Of a stretch of DNA of 34,025 bases, positions 15,123 to 26,526 are shown piece after piece; position 1 is the stretch's first letter; each line of letters starts with the position of its first letter. The translations under genes were made by a program, and so were the position numbers. Source of the stretch: an uncultured Pelagibacteraceae bacterium (lineage in GTDB: Bacteria > Pseudomonadota > Alphaproteobacteria > Pelagibacterales > Pelagibacteraceae); NCBI GenBank assembly GCA_902614835.1, contig CACMMU010000001.1:79944-113968 (forward strand), read 5' to 3'. A model generated the notes under the pieces. The model did not search any database. It had not been told where the DNA came from and saw only the letters and a list, made by a program, of their open reading frames with translations.

Positions 15123-15800
15123 TCACTTTAAAGAATTTAAAAAAGGCTGCAGTTTAGCAGCCTTTTTTTTTGAATAAAACACACAAGCTTGTGACTTTAA
15201 AATCAAACCATCTTTTAAAATTCTAAGGTTGTTGTCTCTTAAAGTTTTTCCAGTCGAAGTGATGTCGGTAATAATTTCTGAAGAACCAATAAAAGGATAA
15301 GTTTCTGTTGCTCCAAGGCTGGCGACTAATTTGTATTGAGTAACGCCTTTTGAAACCAAAAAATTATTAGTTAAATTCGGGTACTTTGTTGCAACTCTCA
15401 ATCTAGTATTTTTTTTATCTCTAAAATCGAAAGATACTTCCTCTAAATCAGCAACGGTTTGTACATCTATCCAATCATTTGGAATAGCAACCACAACATT
15501 TGCTGAACCAAAATCTAATTTTTTCTTAACTTCAATTTTTTGTTTCAGGCTTGTGGCGGACTCATTTAAAAGATCCAAACCTGAAATCCCTACATCAAGG
15601 GTGCCATCACCAATTCTTTGAATGATCTCTTTTGCATGTAAATAAATGATTTTAATATTAGGAAAATTTTTCACCTCAGCAAAATAGTTTCTCTCTCCTC
15701 CATTTGGAGTTAATTTTAAATTGTTTCTAGCAAGAAAATTTATTGAGTCCTCTTTCAATCTGCCTTTGCTTGGTAACCCTATAGTTATTAAATTTTTCAT
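15123..15800 (-). CDS. hisG: ATP phosphoribosyltransferase, short form catalytic subunit
   Basis: HisG condenses ATP and PRPP in the first, feedback-controlled step of histidine synthesis. At 225 residues it is the short form (HisGS), which lacks the C-terminal regulatory domain and needs HisZ; hisZ is directly upstream, overlapping by ATGA. Seen: IGLPSKGRL near the N-terminus, GDGTLDVGISGLDLL, and the PRPP-binding loop region EIITDITSTGKTLRDNNL. Oddity: the last ~13 codons contain a perfect GGCTGC/GCAGCC hairpin followed by six T, that is, an intrinsic terminator within the reading frame (15139-15162). The residues there (KKKAAKLQPFLNSLK) may be partly dictated by that structure. Confidence 0.94.
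   Translation of the reverse strand: MKNLITIGLPSKGRLKEDSINFLARNNLKLTPNGGERNYFAEVKNFPNIKIIYLHAKEIIQRIGDGTLDVGISGLDLLNESATSLKQKIEVKKKLDFGSANVVVAIPNDWIDVQTVADLEEVSFDFRDKKNTRLRVATKYPNLTNNFLVSKGVTQYKLVASLGATETYPFIGSSEIITDITSTGKTLRDNNLRILKDGLILKSQACVFYSKKKAAKLQPFLNSLK
15139..15162 (-). terminator. intrinsic terminator embedded in the 3' end of hisG
   Basis: On the minus strand, GGCTGC-TAAACT-GCAGCC (15162 to 15145) is followed by six T (15144-15139), while the hisG stop is only reached at 15123. On the plus strand the same stem is followed by nine T, so it may also work in that direction, but I see no plus-strand gene that needs it. Confidence 0.75.
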
Positions 15801-16846
15801 GTATTTAAATTGTTTAAATTAATTGCAGCACCTACTGCTGAAATATTTTTCTTAGATCCGAGACTCTTCAATAAGCTATCGTATCTACCACCTCTTGCTA
15901 GCTCTTTTTTTGAAGAATCGTATATCTCGAATACAACTCCAGAATAGTACTCGATATCTCTACCAAAATTTGTAGAAAAAGTAATTTTAGAATTTAGCCT
16001 AGATAAATTTTTCAAACTTGATAGATCTTTAAAAACACTTTTGCTTAACTGATTTTTGTTAATAAAATTATTTAATGTTTTTTCTAATTTAACTAACGGG
16101 CAATTAATTTTTAAAAAATCTTTAATAATTTTCACCGTTTTTTTATTTTCTTTAAATGATCGTGGATCTTTAATTTTTCTATCAAATCTAGATATGATTT
16201 CTGAAACTTTTCGGTTTGCAACTTCTTTGTTCTGATCAATATTCTTCATTTCGAAAAACTTTTTCTTATCTAGTTCTACTGTAGAGGGATCAACATCAGA
16301 ATTTGTTTCAAGCCTGTTAAGCAAATCCTCAAAATATTTTGGACGCCAAAAGTGTCTTTTTAATCTCATTTTCCATCTTTCTGGTATTTTTAAAGAATCG
16401 ATCAATTGCTTGAACAAACTTACATCTCCAACTTTAATCGATATATTTTTAATTTTTATTTTGTTGATTGAATTAGTTATTGTTTTTAAAACTTTTAAAT
16501 CATCCGAGGATTTATTTTTAGAACCAAAAATCTCTAAACCTAATTGATAATTAACAACTTTCTTTAAACTTTTCGACCTTCTATAAGCTTGTCCGGAATA
16601 ATATATTTTTGAATTTCCTTTAGAGTTATCTTTTAAATATTTAATACATGAAGCAACTGTCAAATCTGGTCTTAAACACATGCTTTTTCCAGTATCATCC
16701 TCAAAAGTAAGCATTATCTTCCTAAAATTCTCTCCAGATCTTTCAATGATATAATCCGAATCTAAAAGTACATCTGGTTCTGACAAAACAAAACCATCTT
16801 TCTTAAATACTTTTATTATATTTTCAGAGTAATTTTTTGATTTCAT
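15797..16846 (-). CDS. hisZ: ATP phosphoribosyltransferase regulatory subunit HisZ
   Basis: HisZ is a HisRS paralogue without synthetase activity. It forms a hetero-octamer with short HisG and confers histidine feedback control. The 349-residue protein has class II-like motif 2 and 3 remnants (MCLRPDLTVASCIKY, YYSGQAYRRS, STNFGRDIEYYSGVVFEIYD, ARGGRYDSLL) but lacks the full anticodon-binding domain. It overlaps hisS by 23 bp upstream and hisG by 4 bp downstream. The middle (about residues 150-260) is lysine-rich and poorly conserved, normal for HisZ. Context with a short HisG makes the call firm. Confidence 0.9.
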   Translation of the reverse strand: MKSKNYSENIIKVFKKDGFVLSEPDVLLDSDYIIERSGENFRKIMLTFEDDTGKSMCLRPDLTVASCIKYLKDNSKGNSKIYYSGQAYRRSKSLKKVVNYQLGLEIFGSKNKSSDDLKVLKTITNSINKIKIKNISIKVGDVSLFKQLIDSLKIPERWKMRLKRHFWRPKYFEDLLNRLETNSDVDPSTVELDKKKFFEMKNIDQNKEVANRKVSEIISRFDRKIKDPRSFKENKKTVKIIKDFLKINCPLVKLEKTLNNFINKNQLSKSVFKDLSSLKNLSRLNSKITFSTNFGRDIEYYSGVVFEIYDSSKKELARGGRYDSLLKSLGSKKNISAVGAAINLNNLNT

Positions 16847-18158
16847 TTTCTAGCTCCTCGATTTTAACTGAACTCTCATTTCCGCTTTCTAAATTTTTTA
16901 AAGTAACTTTTCCTGATTTTATTTCATTTTCACCATACAAAATAACTGCTGGGGATCCTAACTTGTTTGCATATTCCATTTGTTTTTTTAACTTGCCCTC
17001 TCCTGGATAAATTTCTGAACTGATATTCGAGACTCTAAGTTTATTTAGTATATCTACATATTCCTTAATTTTGCTCTTATCAAAAACACATATAACGACT
17101 GGCCGTGTAGAATTTATTTTAAAATCTTTTTTCTGCATCAAAGCAAATACAAGTCTATCTAGACCGATTGATATTCCGGTTGAGGGACAATCTAAATTTC
17201 CAAAATTACTAACAAGATTATCATACCTTCCTCCTCCGCCTATCGATCCAAATTGAATGTTCTGTCCTTTTGAATTTTTTACTTGAAAATTTAAATTAAC
17301 CTCAAAAATAGGTCCCGTGTAGTATTCCAGTCCTCTTATAACTGATGGGTCAAATTTATAATTCTTAAAATTGTAAGCCTCGAACACTTTTAGAATTTCT
17401 AAAACATCTTCGCTATCAGGAATTTTAGACCTCAAAGTAGACTCGATTGTTTTGATCTGGTCATCACTAAGATTTGCTCCCTTTGTGTAATCTCCCGATT
17501 TATCTTTCCGACCTTCGCCGAGAAGTTTTTTTGCCTCCTCCCAACCAAGTCTGTCAATTTTATCTAGGGCTCGCAGCGTAGTTGAAATTTTATCTCTCGA
17601 TGTAATTTTCAACTTTTCGAATAATTTATCTGTTAATTTTCTAGAAGAAATTTTTACAGTATAATCTTTTTTATCTAAACCACACTTTTCTAATATCTCA
17701 GAAATTAATACACAAAGCTCTGCGTCTGCTTGTAAATTTTTTGTTCCCACGTAGTCAGCATCAAATTGTAAAAATTCTCTAAATCTTCCCGGCCCAGGTT
17801 TCTCATTTCTCCAAACAGAACCTAATTGGTAACGCTTGAATGGTTTGGGTATTTCAAGATAATTTTTTGCAACATATCTTGCTAAAGGAGCAGTAAGATC
17901 ATAACGAAGTGACATCCATTTATTTTCATCTTTAAAAGAAAATACTCCAGAATCTGGCCTTTCCTTATCAGGTAAAAATTTTCCAATACTATCCGTATAC
18001 TCGAAGCTAGGTGTTTCGAGATATTGAAAACCGTACTTAATCATAACTTCTTTAATTTTAGAAATTACAAAGTCACGGATTAATAATTCTTTTTCTTGTC
18101 TGTCTACAAAACCTAAAGGTAGTTCCTTAGAAGGTTTTATTTTTTTATCTTTTACCAT
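16824..18158 (-). CDS. hisS: histidine--tRNA ligase (divergent alphaproteobacterial type)
   Basis: Charges tRNA-His. The frame stays open upstream to 18188, but that part is the tRNA-His gene read through. The ATG at 18158, 3 nt after the tRNA CCA end, gives a 444-residue protein starting MVKDKKIKPSKELPLGF. Motif 2 reads VWRNEKPGPGRFREFLQFDADYVG-like rather than the usual FRHERPQKGRYRQFHQ, the mark of the divergent HisRS that recognises tRNA-His without G-1. Also seen: SLRYDLTAPLARY, the histidine-site GLEYYTGPIFEV, GGGGRYDNL, and the C-terminal anticodon-binding domain from about residue 345. No Shine-Dalgarno site is possible in the 3-nt gap, so translation either reads a pre-tRNA leader or starts leaderless. 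Confidence 0.95.
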   Translation of the reverse strand: MVKDKKIKPSKELPLGFVDRQEKELLIRDFVISKIKEVMIKYGFQYLETPSFEYTDSIGKFLPDKERPDSGVFSFKDENKWMSLRYDLTAPLARYVAKNYLEIPKPFKRYQLGSVWRNEKPGPGRFREFLQFDADYVGTKNLQADAELCVLISEILEKCGLDKKDYTVKISSRKLTDKLFEKLKITSRDKISTTLRALDKIDRLGWEEAKKLLGEGRKDKSGDYTKGANLSDDQIKTIESTLRSKIPDSEDVLEILKVFEAYNFKNYKFDPSVIRGLEYYTGPIFEVNLNFQVKNSKGQNIQFGSIGGGGRYDNLVSNFGNLDCPSTGISIGLDRLVFALMQKKDFKINSTRPVVICVFDKSKIKEYVDILNKLRVSNISSEIYPGEGKLKKQMEYANKLGSPAVILYGENEIKSGKVTLKNLESGNESSVKIEELENEIKKLL

Positions 18159-18161
18159 TTT

Positions 18162-18238
18162 TGGTACAGCAGGGTGGATTCGAACCACCGACCCCTAGTT
18201 CCACAAACTAGTGCTCTAACCAACTGAGCTACTGCTGC
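18162..18238 (-). tRNA. tRNA-His (anticodon GTG)
   Basis: A complete cloverleaf of 77 nt with encoded CCA: acceptor GCAGCAG/CTGCTGT, D-stem GCTC/GAGC, anticodon stem CTAGT/ACTAG around TTGTGGA (anticodon GTG), T-stem GGTGG/CCACC with TTCGAAT loop. The first acceptor pair is G1:U72, the discriminator is A73, and the base at -1 is T, so the usual bacterial G-1:C73 pair is absent. Caulobacter-type alphaproteobacterial tRNA-His shares these traits, with U72 and A73 read by the divergent HisRS. Its own synthetase gene starts 3 nt downstream on the same strand. Confidence 0.97.
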
Positions 18239-20026: not shown

Positions 20027-22171
20027 ATGAAAAAAACCAGAGTTGGAAACCTTAATATTGATGATCGATTTATCAAATTTATCGATGATGAGGCTATTAA
20101 AGGCACAGGTATAGATAGAGATAATTTCTGGTCTGGCTTTGATAAAGCAGTTCATGAATTAGCTCCTATAAATAAAAAATTACTACAAAAGAGAGATGAA
20201 ATTCAAAAAAAAATAGATGAATGGCATTTGTTAAATAAAGGTAATTCTTTTGATGAAAAGAAATACTTTAATTTTTTAAAATCAATAGGATATATGGTTG
20301 AACAAAAAGAAGATTTTAAAATTAATACATCAAACGTTGATGAAGAAATTGCTACTATAGCTGGACCTCAGTTGGTTGTTCCTGTTGATAATGCTCGTTA
20401 CGCATTAAATGCTGCAAATGCTAGATGGGGAAGTTTGTACGATGCGCTTTACGGGACTGATGCCACTCCAGGAAATAAAGGTAAAGAATATAATGAGGAA
20501 AGAGGTTATGCGGTTATAAGTTATGTTAGAAATTTTTTAGATGAATCTGTCCCTATTTCAAATGCAAAATGGAATGAAGTAAAAAAATTTAAAATAGAAG
20601 ATGATAAACTTGTTTTATTTTTTACAAGTGAAAAATACTTTCTTAAAAACAATGATCAATTTATTGGCTTTCAGGGAGAAAAAAATAGTCCAAAATCAAT
20701 TTTGTTAAAAAATAACAATCTGCATATAGACATAGTAATTGATTCAAATAGTAGAGTTGGAAAGATGGACTCAGCAAATATAAGTGATGTTATTATTGAA
20801 TCCGCAATTTCTACTATTGTGGACAATGAAGATTCTGTAGCTGCCGTTGATGGAGAAGATAAAATTAAATGTTACCGTAATTGGTTAGGGTTGATGAAAG
20901 GTGATCTAACAGCAAATATGGAAAAAAATGGAAAAAAGATTGTAAGGAAATTAAATCCTAATCGAAACTATATATCTAAAGATGGAAAAAAAATAAGTTT
21001 GCATGGAAGAGCTCTCCTTCTAAATCGAAACGTGGGTCACCTAATGACAAATCCCGCAATAATTTTGCAAGACGGATCCGAGATTCCCGAGGGTATTTTA
21101 GACGCTTTTGTATCTACCCTATGTGCTATTCATGATTTTAAAAATAAAAATAATTCACGAACCGGATCTTTTTATATTGTCAAACCAAAAATGCACGGCC
21201 CAGAAGAAGTTGCTTTTACTGATAATATTTTTGAAAAAGTTGAGTTGGTATTGGGTTTGAAAAAAAACACTATAAAAGTAGGAATAATGGATGAAGAAAG
21301 AAGAACCACGGTAAATTTAAAAGAATGCATAAGAAAAGTAAAAGAAAGAATTGTTTTTATAAATACTGGCTTTTTAGATAGAACTGGAGACGAAATGCAT
21401 ACCTCGTTTGAAGCCGGACCAATGATTTTCAAAGGAGCAATGAAAAAATCTACATGGCTAAACACATATGAAGACTGGAATGTTGACGTTGGTTTATCTT
21501 GTGGTTTTTCTGGAAAGGCGCAAATAGGAAAAGGAATGTGGGCTATGCCTGATAGGATGGCAGACATGATGAATCAAAAAATATCTCATCCTGAGTCAGG
21601 TGCTAATTGTGCTTGGGTACCTTCCCCTACAGCAGCAACTCTTCATGCTACCCACTACCATAAAATTGATGTTTTTCAGAAACAGAACAAAATAAAATCT
21701 AGAAAAAAAGCCAACCTCGAAAATATATTAAAAATACCAAAAGCAGACAGGCCTAATTGGTCAGTTGAGGATATCAATAAAGAATTAGAAAATAATGCTC
21801 AAGGTATTCTAGGATATGTGGTTAGATGGGTTGATCAAGGAGTTGGTTGCTCCAAAGTACCAGATATAAACGATATAGGTTTGATGGAAGATAGAGCAAC
21901 TTTAAGAATATCATCTCAACATATGGCAAATTGGTTACATCACAATATATGCTCAAAGGATCAGGTTATGAGTGTTATGAAAAAAATGGCAGCAATTGTG
22001 GATCAGCAAAATAAAGAAGATAAAAATTATTTGCCTATGTCCCCAAATTTTGAAAAGTCTGTAGCTTTCACTGCAGCTTGCGACTTGGTATTTAAAGGAA
22101 GAGAACAGCCATCAGGTTATACTGAGCCTATACTTCACAAAAAGAGGTTAGAAAAAAAGTCTAATCGTTAG
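20027..22171 (+). CDS. glcB: malate synthase G
   Basis: Condenses glyoxylate with acetyl-CoA to malate, the second step of the glyoxylate shunt. The 714-residue protein has the type G size (E. coli 723) and motifs: [77 protein letters not shown], and [20 protein letters not shown] with the catalytic Asp of the MEDRATL motif. The 97-bp upstream gap shows neither a clear Shine-Dalgarno site nor a glycine aptamer, although in Pelagibacter ubique this gene is reported to be under a glycine riboswitch. It converges on recR with an 11-bp overlap. Confidence 0.97.
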
Positions 22172-22769
22172 ATACTGGAACTCTGTTTTTAAAAGCTGAA
22201 ATCAAGGTGCCGTCATCTAGCTGTTCTATTTCACCACCAACAGGCAAACCTTGTCCAAGCTTTGAAATCTTTATTTTATCATTTTTGATAATATCCTCTA
22301 AATAATGAGCCGTAGTTTGCCCTTCGATTGTAGCGCTTGTTGCAATTATAACTTCTTTTATGTTGTTACTTTTAATTCTCTTCACTAGAGAATTTATTAA
22401 CAAATTTTTTTGATTATAATCTTCATTAGGATTTATTGTTCCTCCCAAAATATGAAAGTGGCCTTTAAATATGTCAGAAGAATCTATAACCCACATGTCT
22501 GCTAAATTTTCTACTACACAGATTTTGTCATAATTTTTTTTATTTTCTTCACAAATACATTTATTTTGAGATAACTTGAGGTTTCCACAACTGTCACAAC
22601 GCATTATATTTTTGTAAACACCTGCTAAAGACTTGGCCAAAGGCTTTACCATGTTTTCCTTATTGTTTATTAGTTTTAAGATAATTCTTTTTGCTGATTT
22701 TGGTCCAAGACCCGGCAGTTTGGAAAATTGTTTAATAAGCTCTTCTATCTCTGGAATATGATGTACCAT
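22161..22769 (-). CDS. recR: recombination mediator RecR
   Basis: RecR works with RecO/RecF to load RecA at gaps. The 202-residue protein has the N-terminal helix-hairpin-helix ([16 protein letters not shown]), a four-Cys zinc finger ([16 protein letters not shown]), a Toprim domain ([14 protein letters not shown], the [15 protein letters not shown] segment) and the C-terminal [22 protein letters not shown]. Length is normal. It follows ybaB with no gap (22769/22770), giving the classical dnaX-ybaB-recR order. The 3' end overlaps glcB tail-to-tail. Confidence 0.95.
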
Positions 22770-23090
22770 TTAAAAAGGAAGCTTTATATCAAAAGGTAAA
22801 TTAGGCATTCCTGTTGCCTTGGCTATTTCTTCAGATGTTTTTTTTTTTAGTTTATTTTTTGCATCATTGTAAGCTGCAATTATAAGATCGTTTATAATTT
22901 CATCTTTTTCTTTTTTTGCATCTTTATCTACAAATATAGACTTCATTTCATAATCTCCTTTAAGAGTAACTTTGACAAGGCTTCCACCAGAAACACCCTC
23001 GACTTCAATATTTTTTAGATTTTCTTGAACCTCACTCATTTTTTCTTGCATTTTTTTTGCTTGGGATAACATATCATTAAAATTACTCAT
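22770..23090 (-). CDS. ybaB: YbaB/EbfC family nucleoid-associated protein
   Basis: A 106-residue DNA-binding protein of the YbaB/EbfC family, a dimeric tweezer-like fold. Seen: an N-terminal helix MLSQAKKMQEKMSEVQENLKNIEVEG, the GGSLVKVTLKGDYEMKSI strand region, and DLIIAAYNDAKNKL. The length fits (E. coli 109). It overlaps the 3' end of dnaX by 8 bp and abuts recR, as in most bacteria. Its exact role is unsettled; a link to recombination or nucleoid organisation is inferred from the conserved neighbourhood. Confidence 0.93.
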   Translation of the reverse strand: MSNFNDMLSQAKKMQEKMSEVQENLKNIEVEGVSGGSLVKVTLKGDYEMKSIFVDKDAKKEKDEIINDLIIAAYNDAKNKLKKKTSEEIAKATGMPNLPFDIKLPF

Positions 23091-24768
23091 CTTTTTTTCC
23101 TATATTGGTCAAGTCTGCGTCAGGAAATACGCTAAGCATTTCTTTAAATGTTTCACTATTCTTTTCCTGATCCAAAGTTTCTTTTTTTTTATCTAATTTT
23201 TCTTGAAAATAGGTCTTCAAATTTTCCTCTTTACTTAAAGTAATTATCCATCTTGTTTCTGTCCATTTGTGGAGGCATTGGGATAAATTTTTAATAAAAT
23301 TTTTATTTAAATTCTCATTAAAGTTAATCTCAATTTTACCATTTTCAAACTTAGCAACTTTAACATTTCGTTCTAAATCATACTTTAGTTCAATTTCTTT
23401 TTTTTCTTCAGCAATTTTAATTAAATCTGCAAAAGAATTTATTTTAAAATTCTTGATCTCATCTAATTTTTTGAGAGGTTCATTTTTTGTAATTGTTTTT
23501 ACTTGATCGACACTTTTGAGTTGATCTGCCGCAGTATTTCTTGATGCAATAGATTTGTTATTTTTTAATTCACTTTTATCTTCAGCAATATTTTTATTTT
23601 TTGTATTTTCTTTTAAATCTGTTTCTTTATGCATTTCATCAATTTCCTTTACGTGAATTAACTGAATAATATACATCTCAAGTGCAACATTTTCGTTGGA
23701 AACAGTATTTAGATCTTCAATAGTCTTCAAAGTTAATTGCCAAAATAAAGTTAGGTCTTGGATTTTTAATCCTTTGCATGCTTCCTCTATTAAACTTAAT
23801 TCCGACTCGGATATAAATAGCTCTTTATCAATCGGACCAAGATTTATTCTTCTGCTAAATAAATAAATTAGTTCTAAAATATCATTTAAAAAATTTTTAG
23901 GATCAAGGCCTTCGTCAATTAATTCGCCTAAAATTTTTAAAGCTTTATCCTCGTTACCAGCAAATACATGTTGAAGCAATTTTATTGTTTTAGATTTATC
24001 TGCTAGACCTAGCATTTTTCTAACATCTATGTCTGTTATAGTTTCTGATGGTTTCAGGCTTTGAAAAATTAAAGCTCTATCCAATAATGATACAGCATCT
24101 CTCACGGAACCCTCTGAGGCTCTAGCCAATAAATGTAAAGCGTCATCTGATATTTTACCTTTTTCGATTTCTAAAATTTGTTTTAAGTGTTTTGTAATTT
24201 TATCTAAACTTACTCTTTTTAAATCAAATCTTTGGCATCTTGATAATATTGTAACCGGTATTTTTCTGGACTCTGTTGTAGCTAAAATAAACTTTAGTTT
24301 TTGCGGAGGTTCTTCTAAGGTTTTAAGCAAACCATTAAAAGCTTGTTTTGAAAGCATATGAACTTCATCGATTATAAAAACTTTATATTTAGCACTGGTT
24401 GGATTATATTTCGAGCTCTCAATTAGTTCTCTTACATCATCAATTCCAGTTTTTGATGCGGCATCCATTTCAAGAACATCGATATGATTTGAGTTTTCTA
24501 TTTCATTACAATGGTTGCATGGATCTTTTTGATCGCACAAATAATTATTATTTTTATTCTTTGTACAATTTAATGCTTTGGCTATTAGACGAGCTGTTGT
24601 TGTTTTTCCAACACCTCGAATACCTGTCAAAAGATATGCGTTGGGGGTTTTGCCTAGATTAATTCCATTTAAGATGGTTTCGGCTAAAACCTCTTGTCCC
24701 AGTAAATCCTTAAATACTTTCGGTCGATATTTTAAGGCTAAAATTTTAAATGTATTTTTATTTTCCAT
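23083..24768 (-). CDS. dnaX: DNA polymerase III subunit tau/gamma
   Basis: DnaX is the ATPase of the clamp loader and, as tau, links polymerase and helicase. The 561-residue protein has Walker A GIRGVGKTTTAR at 49-60, a zinc module (C68, C78, C84, C87), Walker B IIDEVHML at 132-139, the SRC box at 176-178, domain III to about residue 365, then a charged lysine-rich linker and a divergent tau region. The start is the only Met before the conserved FKILALKYRPKVFKDLLGQ. The ATG lies 4 nt after the SRP RNA 3' end, with no separate promoter or clear ribosome site. At codons 456-457 an A8 tract forms a -1 slippery heptamer with an immediate -1-frame TGA, which would give a 459-residue gamma form. 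Confidence 0.95.
   Translation of the reverse strand: MENKNTFKILALKYRPKVFKDLLGQEVLAETILNGINLGKTPNAYLLTGIRGVGKTTTARLIAKALNCTKNKNNNYLCDQKDPCNHCNEIENSNHIDVLEMDAASKTGIDDVRELIESSKYNPTSAKYKVFIIDEVHMLSKQAFNGLLKTLEEPPQKLKFILATTESRKIPVTILSRCQRFDLKRVSLDKITKHLKQILEIEKGKISDDALHLLARASEGSVRDAVSLLDRALIFQSLKPSETITDIDVRKMLGLADKSKTIKLLQHVFAGNEDKALKILGELIDEGLDPKNFLNDILELIYLFSRRINLGPIDKELFISESELSLIEEACKGLKIQDLTLFWQLTLKTIEDLNTVSNENVALEMYIIQLIHVKEIDEMHKETDLKENTKNKNIAEDKSELKNNKSIASRNTAADQLKSVDQVKTITKNEPLKKLDEIKNFKINSFADLIKIAEEKKEIELKYDLERNVKVAKFENGKIEINFNENLNKNFIKNLSQCLHKWTETRWIITLSKEENLKTYFQEKLDKKKETLDQEKNSETFKEMLSVFPDADLTNIGKKDE
23398..23405 (-). other. candidate programmed frameshift or slippage site (A8) in dnaX
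   Basis: The zero frame reads GAA GAA AAA AAA GAA, containing the heptamer A-AAA-AAA followed by G. A -1 shift (or one extra A in the mRNA) gives Lys-Lys-Arg-Asn then TGA. The shortened product would be 459 residues against 561. I see no strong downstream stem, and A-runs are common in this genome. Confidence 0.35.
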
Positions 24769-24772
24769 ATCA

Positions 24773-24861
24773 GGAGACCAGACAACCCGCTTTCAAAAGT
24801 CCGTGCTGCTGTTTTTACACCCTGACACATTAAACATATCAAAATCGCCTGAATGGCCTCC
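24773..24861 (-). ncRNA. ffs: bacterial small signal recognition particle RNA (4.5S)
   Basis: The minus strand holds an ~89-nt RNA with an 8-bp terminal helix (GGAGGCCA with TGGTCTCC, one G:U pair). The SRP signature follows: GTCAGG and AGCAGC separated by exactly 10 nt, as in E. coli 4.5S RNA (UCCGGAAGGA there, a divergent GTGTAAAAAC here). These form the Ffh-binding internal loops of domain IV. A perfect TATAAT sits 5 bp before the 5' end, placing the transcription start at about 24861. The apical loop is unusually A-rich and not a clean GNRA tetraloop. The gene ends 4 nt before the dnaX ATG with no terminator between them. Confidence 0.85.
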
Positions 24862-24866
24862 AATTT

Positions 24867-24896
24867 ATTATACCAACATAAAATTGAATTCTACAA
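24867..24896 (-). promoter_or_regulatory. promoter of SRP RNA (and probably dnaX-ybaB-recR)
   Basis: On the minus strand TTGTAG (24896-24891) and a perfect TATAAT (24872-24867) are separated by 18 bp. Transcription would begin at about 24861, matching the first base of the SRP terminal helix. No other promoter could fit between the RNA and dnaX. Confidence 0.65.
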
Positions 24897-24920
24897 GCGT
24901 TGAATTAGAATTTTTGTGGA

Positions 24921-25766
24921 CTATTTTTTTTGTCTAAAAACCGATGCTTCGTAAACCCCTAAAATATTTAAACTTTCTGTGTGAAAACCCAATTCTTCTA
25001 AAGCTTTTTGAACCTGTGACTGTTCAATATGGCCCTCTAAATCTAAATAAAAGTTAGTTTGATCAAAAGTATTTTTTACAGAAAAACTTTCAAGCTTTGT
25101 TAGATTTACTTGATTAGTGGCAAATCCGCCCAAACATTTGTACAAGGCTGCGGGAATACTTTTCAATCTGAAAATACAAGATGTGATATATTTTTTACTT
25201 TTATCATACTCAGGTTGATTCACATTCTTTGACATTATAACGAAACGTGTAGTGTTTTGTGTTTCATCTTCAATATTTTTCATTAAGATTTTAAGATCAT
25301 ATATTTTTGCAGAAAGTCTTGAGGCAATTGCTCCGATTGATTTATCATTACTTTTTGAGAGATCTTTTGCTGATCCAGCGGTGTCGGCTGAAATAATAGT
25401 TTTAAATTTATTTTTAATAATAATTTTTTGACATTGATCTATGGCTTGCGCATGACTTCTTACAAACTTAATATCTTTAAGCTCTGCACCTTTCTTGACT
25501 AATAAATTATGCTCAACTTTTTGAAAATGTTCTGCATGTATTTGTAATTTGTATTTTGGGAGCAAATAGTGAATATCAGCTACTCTTCCTGCTAAAGAAT
25601 TCTCTATAGGTATTATAATTTTATAATCTTCGTTATCATAAGCTATCTTAAAGGTTTCCTCAAAAGTGGGACATGCTTTTATTTCTGATCCTGGAAAAAT
25701 TTCTTCACTTGCTATATGTGAATATGCACCCATTTCACCTTGGAATGCAATTTTAGCCTTACCCAT
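24921..25766 (-). CDS. pheA: prephenate dehydratase
   Basis: Converts prephenate to phenylpyruvate in phenylalanine synthesis. The 281-residue monofunctional form has the catalytic domain (IAFQGEMGAYSHIASEEIF, PIENSLAGRVADIHYLL, the conserved NTTRF motif with the catalytic Thr/Arg) and a C-terminal ACT domain from about residue 190, with KLESFSV standing where Phe-binding enzymes have ESRP. No chorismate mutase domain is present. The ATG overlaps the kdsB stop by one base (TAATG), so the two are co-translated. Phe feedback is probable from the ACT domain, but the altered ESRP motif leaves its strength open. Confidence 0.93.
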   Translation of the reverse strand: MGKAKIAFQGEMGAYSHIASEEIFPGSEIKACPTFEETFKIAYDNEDYKIIIPIENSLAGRVADIHYLLPKYKLQIHAEHFQKVEHNLLVKKGAELKDIKFVRSHAQAIDQCQKIIIKNKFKTIISADTAGSAKDLSKSNDKSIGAIASRLSAKIYDLKILMKNIEDETQNTTRFVIMSKNVNQPEYDKSKKYITSCIFRLKSIPAALYKCLGGFATNQVNLTKLESFSVKNTFDQTNFYLDLEGHIEQSQVQKALEELGFHTESLNILGVYEASVFRQKK

Positions 25767-26500
25767 TATTTCTCCATAATTTTTTTAATTTTTATTAAAT
25801 CTTTCTGTGTATCTACGCTAAGTGGTTTAGTTTTAGTAAAACCAACATGAATTTTCATTTTGTTCTCTAAGGCTCTCATTTGTTCTAATTTTCTCTCAAT
25901 CTCTAATTTACTTCTTTTCAAGTTTACATATCTTATTAAAGCTTCTTTAGTAAAGCCATAAATTCCGATATGATGGTAAATATACTTGCTTTCTTTTGCT
26001 ACATCCTCTCTTTTAAAATCAATCGCTTCGAAAAAATCTGAATTTTCAATGCTTTCTTTTGTTATTACCTTAACAATATTTTTATCATTAACCTCTAATT
26101 GACTTTCTAGAGTAGATGCTAAAGTTGCAATATCACATTTTTTTTTATTTAAATAATCTTTTAATTTAATAATATCTTTAGTATTTAAATTTGGCATATC
26201 ACCTTGCAAATTAATAATAAACTCTGGTTTATTAGAAAAAAATTTATTAAACCCTTCAAAAACTCTATCTGTACCTGTCTCATGAAAATCTTTTGATAGA
26301 AAAGACTTTCCTCCATAATTTTCTACTAATTCAAAAATGGCTTTATCTGGTGTAACAACTAAAACCTCACCGATACTCGATCTGATTGCCAAATCATAAA
26401 CGTGTAATATCATTTCTTTTTGATTGATGAGTTTTAATGGTTTGTCAGGAAGTCTTTGAGCCTGGAGTCTGGATGGTATTATGATGACGGTGCTACTCAT
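25766..26500 (-). CDS. kdsB: 3-deoxy-manno-octulosonate cytidylyltransferase (CMP-KDO synthetase)
   Basis: Activates KDO with CTP, producing the donor used by WaaA (686-1966). The 244-residue protein has the CTP-binding N-terminus VIIIPSRLQAQRLPDKPL, then DLAIRSSIGEVLVVTPDKAI, the ETGTDRVFEGF motif, FIINLQGDMPNL, YHHIGIYGFTKEALIRY, and a C-terminal LEQMRALENKMKIHVG. The family's LEQLR and HIGIY motifs make the call secure. No Shine-Dalgarno site is visible; a perfect 6-bp hairpin lies 10 nt before the ATG (26510-26526). It is first in a two-gene unit with pheA, a common alphaproteobacterial pairing. Confidence 0.95.
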   Translation of the reverse strand: MSSTVIIIPSRLQAQRLPDKPLKLINQKEMILHVYDLAIRSSIGEVLVVTPDKAIFELVENYGGKSFLSKDFHETGTDRVFEGFNKFFSNKPEFIINLQGDMPNLNTKDIIKLKDYLNKKKCDIATLASTLESQLEVNDKNIVKVITKESIENSDFFEAIDFKREDVAKESKYIYHHIGIYGFTKEALIRYVNLKRSKLEIERKLEQMRALENKMKIHVGFTKTKPLSVDTQKDLIKIKKIMEK

Positions 26501-26509
26501 AAAAATTAA

Positions 26510-26526
26510 TGCGTCTCAAGGACGCA
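26510..26526 (-). promoter_or_regulatory. hairpin in the kdsB leader
   Basis: On the minus strand TGCGTC-CTTGA-GACGCA is followed by TTAATTTTT and then the kdsB ATG. The shape resembles an intrinsic terminator or attenuator placed where a ribosome binding site would normally be. Confidence 0.5.

Follow-up and report, generated by a model that had tools for sequence, protein, structure and literature searches.

A short, conserved junction between the SRP RNA gene and dnaX in SAR11 bacteria and its possible role in forming a near-leaderless message

RESULTS

Gene order and spacing at the SRP-dnaX junction

In a 34,025-nt stretch of DNA from a Pelagibacteraceae bacterium, hereafter called the window, the SRP RNA gene runs almost directly into dnaX. 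The minus strand carries, in this order, pheA, a promoter, the SRP RNA, a 4-nt linker, dnaX, ybaB and recR; these parts, their order, their spacing and their conservation among relatives can be read from the sequence. The best explanation of the whole, which we consider fairly probable, is that one transcript is made and that its cleavage frees the SRP RNA and leaves a near-leaderless dnaX mRNA. The observation made in a preliminary description of this DNA is correct and conserved, and its reading as a streamlining device is unproven and faces a simpler rival.

The dnaX gene (DNA polymerase III tau/gamma; 23083..24768, minus; Pfam DNA_pol3_delta2, E = 1.2e-38) begins with an ATG at positions 24768-24766, its sole usual start codon. 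It overlaps by 8 nt with ybaB/ebfC (22770..23090, minus; Pfam YbaB_DNA_bd, E = 2.4e-26), which is followed with a gap of 0 nt by recR (22161..22769, minus; Pfam Toprim_4, RecR_HhH and RecR_C). Upstream of dnaX, the SRP (4.5S) RNA extends from closing helix to closing helix at 24773..24861 (minus), the first G of the helix being at 24861 and the last C at 24773. The linker TGAT (24769..24772, minus) is the only sequence outside the RNA gene before dnaX, and dnaX is not preceded by any Shine-Dalgarno (SD) stretch of at least 4 nt. The RNA had been described as ending 4 nt before the dnaX ATG with no terminator, and a scan for terminator-like sites between the two genes indeed found none. The proposal that one promoter serves ffs-dnaX-ybaB-recR is supported in that these genes form one likely transcription unit; their co-transcription with the SRP RNA is very probable.

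Identity of the RNA upstream of dnaX

A permissive Rfam search of the window matched RF00169 at 24769-24862 (minus), where an SRP RNA had been placed at 24773-24861. The match covers the full length of the model (1-97 of 97), but its score of 25.1 bits (E = 0.0027) is below the membership threshold, the gathering cut-off being 40 bits. At gathering level, the Rfam results for the whole window lacked RF00169 and reported tRNA-His alone. The GUCAGG...AGCAGC internal-loop core is present within a long hairpin, as judged from the alignment and the fold of the genus. The apical hairpin at 24811-24820 (minus), with its loop at 24814-24817, lacks a GNRA tetraloop; by our reading of the alignment, the corresponding loop is UAAA, and the loops of same-genus sequences are UAAA, UAAC or UAAU. 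The low Rfam score thus fits a diverged RNA. The UAAC loop also occurs in other SAR11 loci (e.g., L031). URRC is an alternative SRP apical tetraloop, and a literature search for URRC-type SRP tetraloops gave nothing. Departures from the core (e.g., CCCAGG...AGCAAGG) were seen upstream of dnaX at loci L092, L107, L138 and L146; to our knowledge, the GUCAGG/AGCAGC core is rarely varied elsewhere.

Folding of the single sequence gave a z-score of -1.79 relative to shuffles, which is weak by itself. The fold of the genus alignment comprises 31 pairs, and as only one of them shows a two-sided change, it is not proven by covariation. A 36-sequence alignment across genera yielded a poor consensus fold, and the structure was therefore taken from the genus alignment.

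We compared 61 genomes, 31 of which, including that of the window, belong to the window's genus, six to other genera of the family (one each) and 24 to the sister family. RF00169 matches above the cut-off were obtained in 28 of the 61. A score under the gathering cut-off and the missing GNRA loop would both suit an SRP-like cis-regulatory leader of dnaX that is not SRP RNA at all. However, the above-cut-off matches sit at this very site upstream of dnaX, and the window element has the GUCAGG...AGCAGC core in common with them. Furthermore, the window's own genome, incomplete as it is (858 kb, 79% complete), contains no second RF00169 match at E values up to 10. We regard a cis-regulatory leader as extremely improbable, and on its position and core, rather than on the Rfam threshold, we take the window element to be an SRP RNA orthologue.

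Conservation of the junction in SAR11

A dnaX match was found in 27 of the 31 same-genus genomes, own included, and in all 27 loci the RNA lies directly upstream with the promoter and a junction of 4-11 nt. The ATG is in each case the sole in-frame ATG, GTG or TTG start for dnaX, and in 10 of the 27 loci an in-frame stop between the end of the SRP helix and the ATG fixes the start. In other genera of the order, dnaX follows the SRP RNA in 30 of 30 fetched SRP loci (28 above and two below the Rfam cut-off). Chance is thus a very unlikely explanation of the arrangement. Single genomes from each of six further genera of the family have junctions of 7-9 nt, so that the range across 33 genomes of the family is 4-11 nt; in the sister family (24 genomes) it is 16-27 nt. 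The sequence of the linker varies, and its length stays short.

Among named dnaX loci, we also considered the 80 nearest. Of these, 69 carry the label Pelagibacteraceae or Candidatus Pelagibacter, which places the organism in SAR11; the best match is labelled Alphaproteobacteria only. One locus (L129) begins inside dnaX and was dropped, leaving 79 loci, 70 from SAR11 relatives and nine from other alphaproteobacteria. This collection and the genome set are not independent, as they may share genomes (e.g., L084 and G008:C6, both with a contig of 51,561 bases). The first regular expression for the core missed most SAR11 SRP RNAs and was replaced. With a permissive helix definition, the RNA was detected in 66 of the 70 SAR11 loci at 0-17 nt from the ATG (median 8, these distances being lower bounds), and a stricter helix reduced the number to 59, with distances of 4-17 nt. 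Five of the 79 loci gave no RNA (L102, L105, L107, L150 and L159), including one, L107, whose SRP-like RNA is visible by eye and was missed by the core expression. By comparison, the distance to the first in-frame ATG was 53-257 nt in the eight of nine non-SAR11 loci with a result. By this difference, the short SRP-dnaX junction is typical of SAR11; it is tightest in the window's genus.

Promoter and upstream region

The pheA-like gene for prephenate dehydratase (24921..25766, minus; ORF list; Pfam PDT, E = 1.9e-51) ends with a stop codon located 59 nt upstream of the SRP helix. Between the two lies an extended -10 element, TGGTATAAT (24867..24875, minus). This TGG-TATAAT sequence, at 24875-24867, is placed such that the helix begins at the sixth base past the -10 (5 nt between), and it matches the earlier description of a TATAAT-type promoter aimed at the 5' base of the helix. 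The -35-like TTGTAG (24891..24896, minus; read from 24896 to 24891) is poor, with three of six consensus matches and an 18-nt spacer, and the promoter was missed by a simple sigma-70 consensus scan. Nevertheless, CTTGTAG and TG-N-TATAAT are invariant over 23 distinct same-genus upstream sequences, and a TG-preceded -10-like hexamer was present in all 66 named SAR11 loci with a detected RNA.

Another sequence, TAGTCCACAA (24914..24923, minus), lies over the pheA stop codon and is invariant in the 27 same-genus loci. Its spacing is nearly fixed, its TCC being 57-59 nt upstream of the SRP helix in all 27. It was also seen at L003, a locus from another genus. The element resembles the DnaA box consensus, with 7/9 positions in agreement. 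A looser pattern, TNRTCCACAA, occurs four times in the window for 0.57 expected, and shows no genome-wide excess, with 19 occurrences in the own genome versus 29 for the reversed control. On these grounds we rejected TAGTCCACAA as a proven DnaA box. Farther upstream on the minus strand, the scan reported a terminator-like site at 26510-26526, consisting of a small GC hairpin and, after it, a T-rich stretch, with 9 nt separating it from the start of a kdsB-like gene (25766-26500).

An alternative to a common transcript is that dnaX has a promoter of its own inside the SRP gene, giving two separate, overlapping units. Borrelia burgdorferi, in which the SRP RNA is likewise followed by dnaX and ybaB/ebfC, provides a precedent: on the evidence of reporter fusions, the promoter of dnaX-ebfC was placed just inside the end of srp (PMC9879097). 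However, the Borrelia leader is predicted to be about 179 nt long, with binding sites for DnaA and EbfC (PMC9879097), and a promoter in the window would have to sit wholly within a conserved structural RNA. The consensus scan, limited to sigma-70-type sites and one that also missed the proposed SRP promoter, found no minus-strand site inside the SRP gene. An internal promoter therefore seems quite improbable to us.

Tight junctions downstream of tRNA genes

A second fusion of an RNA gene with a coding gene had been noted at tRNA-His/hisS, and this was borne out and extended. The tRNA-His gene (GTG anticodon, encoded CCA; 18162..18238, minus; ARAGORN; Rfam 71.9 bits) precedes hisS (16824..18158, minus; Pfam tRNA-synt_His, E = 2.6e-35), the ATG of which lies 3 nt past the CCA of the tRNA. 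In the own genome, five of 24 tRNA matches have a Pfam-matched gene 3-7 nt past the encoded CCA, namely His/hisS (3 nt), Gln/CCA-adding-type enzyme (6 nt), Met/glycosyltransferase 61 (5 nt), Leu/trigger factor (7 nt) and Leu/AMP-binding enzyme (5 nt). With SRP/dnaX, 6 of 25 RNA genes in this genome abut a same-strand coding gene. One tRNA-Arg side (L043), where a short ORF alone follows the tRNA, was not counted. The 24 matches include a weak one (L055, G000 C1:9997-10067; 32 bits) that was not called by ARAGORN; it lies about 1 kb from the tRNA-Met of L035, with which its 3' part is identical, and it looks like a partial tRNA copy.

Two of the five junctions are conserved in the genus. All 27 tRNA-His/hisS loci have a gap of 3-5 nt (hisS being found in 27 of the 31 genomes, with frames of more than 400 aa), and all 23 tRNA-Gln/cca loci have one of 4-8 nt (a match in 23 of the 31 genomes, frames of more than 380 aa). 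Both linkers vary in sequence and are constantly short and A+T-rich. The hisS of G014 matched in two segments (L277 and L278; 78% and 54% identity) within one long open frame, the second of which was left out, and that of G012 (L276) shows 56% identity versus 88-95% in other relatives; these sequences possibly reflect recombination or a different hisS copy. In the window itself, tRNA-His, hisS, a hisZ-like gene (15797-16846, the second with a tRNA-synt_His domain) and hisG form one head-to-tail run (15123-18238, minus) that brings together tRNA-His, its charging and the synthesis of histidine.

In two other genomes, ORFs of at least 60 aa begin within 12 nt of a tRNA in 7 of 30 loci (G032; 30 of 33 matches) and 3 of 28 loci (G037), the partners being ORFs only, and the two shortest of those in G032 (83 and 93 aa) doubtful. 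A Hyphomicrobiales control genome gave 2 of 28, one with a TTG start; for G061, 30 of 42 tRNA matches were taken as loci and two were then skipped for length. Across three SAR11 genomes, an SD-like stretch was found in none of 16 gaps of up to 12 nt versus 8 of 16 gaps of 13-120 nt, in a comparison where longer gaps favour chance SD stretches and where one of the short gaps is an artefact (L034, whose 6-nt junction arises from a TTG; secE begins 15 nt after the CCA).

Compaction and the accessibility of the dnaX start

We compared these junctions with the general spacing of genes using 33 window genes chosen by hand, with predicted starts. Sixteen of the 21 same-strand pairs that have no RNA between them are at most 10 nt apart, and the RNA-gene junctions are not tighter than this ordinary spacing. 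The special streamlining device proposed in the preliminary description was thus not borne out, and spacing by itself was rejected as evidence of a dedicated device, as compaction alone predicts tight junctions. For the tight SRP-dnaX spacing, our preferred interpretation is that general compaction has affected a gene neighbourhood, SRP RNA next to dnaX, which also exists outside SAR11.

Nor is the missing SD at dnaX special, because 23 of the 33 genes also lack an SD stretch of at least 4 nt. A 16S 3'-end pattern with the anti-SD was found in 23 of the 31 same-genus genomes, own included. At the 24 sister-family junctions of 16-27 nt, there is likewise no SD stretch of at least 4 nt, and SD-free initiation at these junctions therefore need not be leaderless. 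The dnaX start is ATG in all 27 same-genus loci, which is a weak test of leaderless initiation since most of the chosen window genes also start with ATG.

The folding of the start region was calculated for 30 of the 33 genes. If the SRP RNA is still attached, 12.3 kcal/mol would be needed at 37 C to open the region from -15 to +12 around the dnaX ATG, more than for any other of the 30 genes (median 6.25); at 20 C the figure is 16.4 kcal/mol (median 9.4). A 4-nt leader lowers it to 1.4 and 2.5 kcal/mol at 37 C and 20 C, respectively, a comparison that is not strict because a smaller region is opened. The starts at the five tRNA junctions would require 8.8-11.7 kcal/mol at 37 C, values that take or would take 1st to 6th place in the ranking of the 30. 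An RNA in front differs from a protein gene in front in the mechanism that it imposes: protein-coding neighbours can share ribosomes, but a structural RNA has to be excised, and its fold covers the ribosome site.

These values bear on the simpler rival, plain compaction. It holds that the genes are co-transcribed, that there is no specific cut and that the small amount of DnaX required comes from the read-through RNA, with ribosomes melting the end of the SRP helix or using partly degraded RNA. The spacing of window genes and their frequent lack of an SD agree with it, as does a linker that varies in sequence and stays short. Against it, the dnaX start is the costliest of the 30 to open with the RNA attached, and a mature SRP RNA would have to be cut from the read-through transcript in any case. 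We consider plain compaction as the full account unlikely.

DISCUSSION

A model for dnaX expression

We favor a model in which transcription would start from the extended -10 promoter, the start site being the first base of the SRP helix or a neighbouring one, and RNA polymerase would continue into dnaX, ybaB and recR. The short A+T-rich linker would then be cut by an endonuclease, for which RNase E is a candidate, and exonucleases would trim to the stable helix to yield mature SRP RNA. This cut would leave 0-4 nt before the AUG, 4 nt being the maximum leader that the sequence allows after SRP excision, and the dnaX mRNA would be translated as a near-leaderless message.

We infer the single transcript, the cut, the nuclease and the leaderless initiation from several lines of evidence. 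The model is favored by the presence of promoter, RNA and junction in all 27 same-genus loci, by the lack of a terminator in the scan, and by the same layout at His/hisS and Gln/cca. Leaderless translation of dnaX, a step towards which we lean slightly, is suggested by the cost of opening this start with the SRP RNA attached, by its low cost with a 4-nt leader and by the absence of an SD. It counts against the model that SRP RNA should far exceed dnaX mRNA in abundance, which would require attenuation or fast decay, and we saw neither. Of the 31 same-genus genomes, 28 encode RNase E/G. In Escherichia coli, RNase E is reported to cleave a tRNA precursor 2 nt past metU (PMC4191395). Leaderless messages are found in alphaproteobacteria: a study of Sinorhizobium lists 171 such start sites, all at AUG (PMC3616915).

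Relation to known systems

In Bacillus subtilis, an SRP RNA gene also precedes dnaX-ybaB-recR, in the order scr-dnaX-yaaK-recR. The B. subtilis SRP RNA is longer and is separately processed.

The closest precedent is Candidatus Pelagibacter ubique HTCC1062, of the same bacterial order, for which Table 1 of a 2009 study of structured RNAs gives pheA, SRP RNA and dnaX in this order and on the same strand, the SRP RNA lying in a 144-nt gap between pheA and dnaX (PMC2704228). The portion of that study available gives the gene order; the promoter, the length of the junction and translation are outside its text (PMC2704228). At the two loci labelled P. ubique (L098 and L133), the junctions are 7 and 11 nt, versus 4 nt in the window.

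The Salmonella yifK locus shows a related arrangement, in that a 2.0-kb RNA spans a coding gene and runs into a tRNA operon, and a 1.4-kb mRNA was inferred by the authors to be its processing product (PMC3879156). There, however, the tRNAs apparently come after the gene, such that the cut makes the 3' end of the mRNA, and yifK is transcribed from a promoter of its own, with a leader of 64 nt and a Shine-Dalgarno sequence (PMC3879156). Mitochondrial tRNA punctuation is alike in that structural RNAs flank messages and their excision sets mRNA ends. It is an organelle system, whereas the arrangement in the window concerns some junctions only, involves a bacterial promoter and is known from sequence alone.

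The order pheA-SRP-dnaX, in P. ubique, and the succession SRP-dnaX, in Borrelia, are thus already known. In contrast, the tightness of the junction and its repeated occurrence after tRNAs appear to be new as far as one open-licence library shows, in which we found no paper on tight RNA-to-start junctions in SAR11.

Significance

SAR11 bacteria belong to the most abundant cells of the ocean, and the wider question is how their compacted genomes make separate, translatable messages. The conserved junctions of 3-11 nt after structural RNAs are testable candidates for leaderless housekeeping mRNAs made by processing, and a cultured strain may be suitable for such tests, as the P. ubique-labelled loci also have a short junction. 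As a tentative and on balance doubtful extension, excision of structural RNAs might be the normal route by which 5' ends are formed in this SAR11 family for dnaX, hisS, cca and tig. The resulting mRNAs would be leaderless, with a 5' monophosphate, and their supply would be tied to maturation of the upstream RNA, which would make the layout the equivalent, in a free-living bacterium, of mitochondrial tRNA punctuation. As messages made by processing, dnaX and hisS would also couple replication and tRNA charging, respectively, to RNA maturation.
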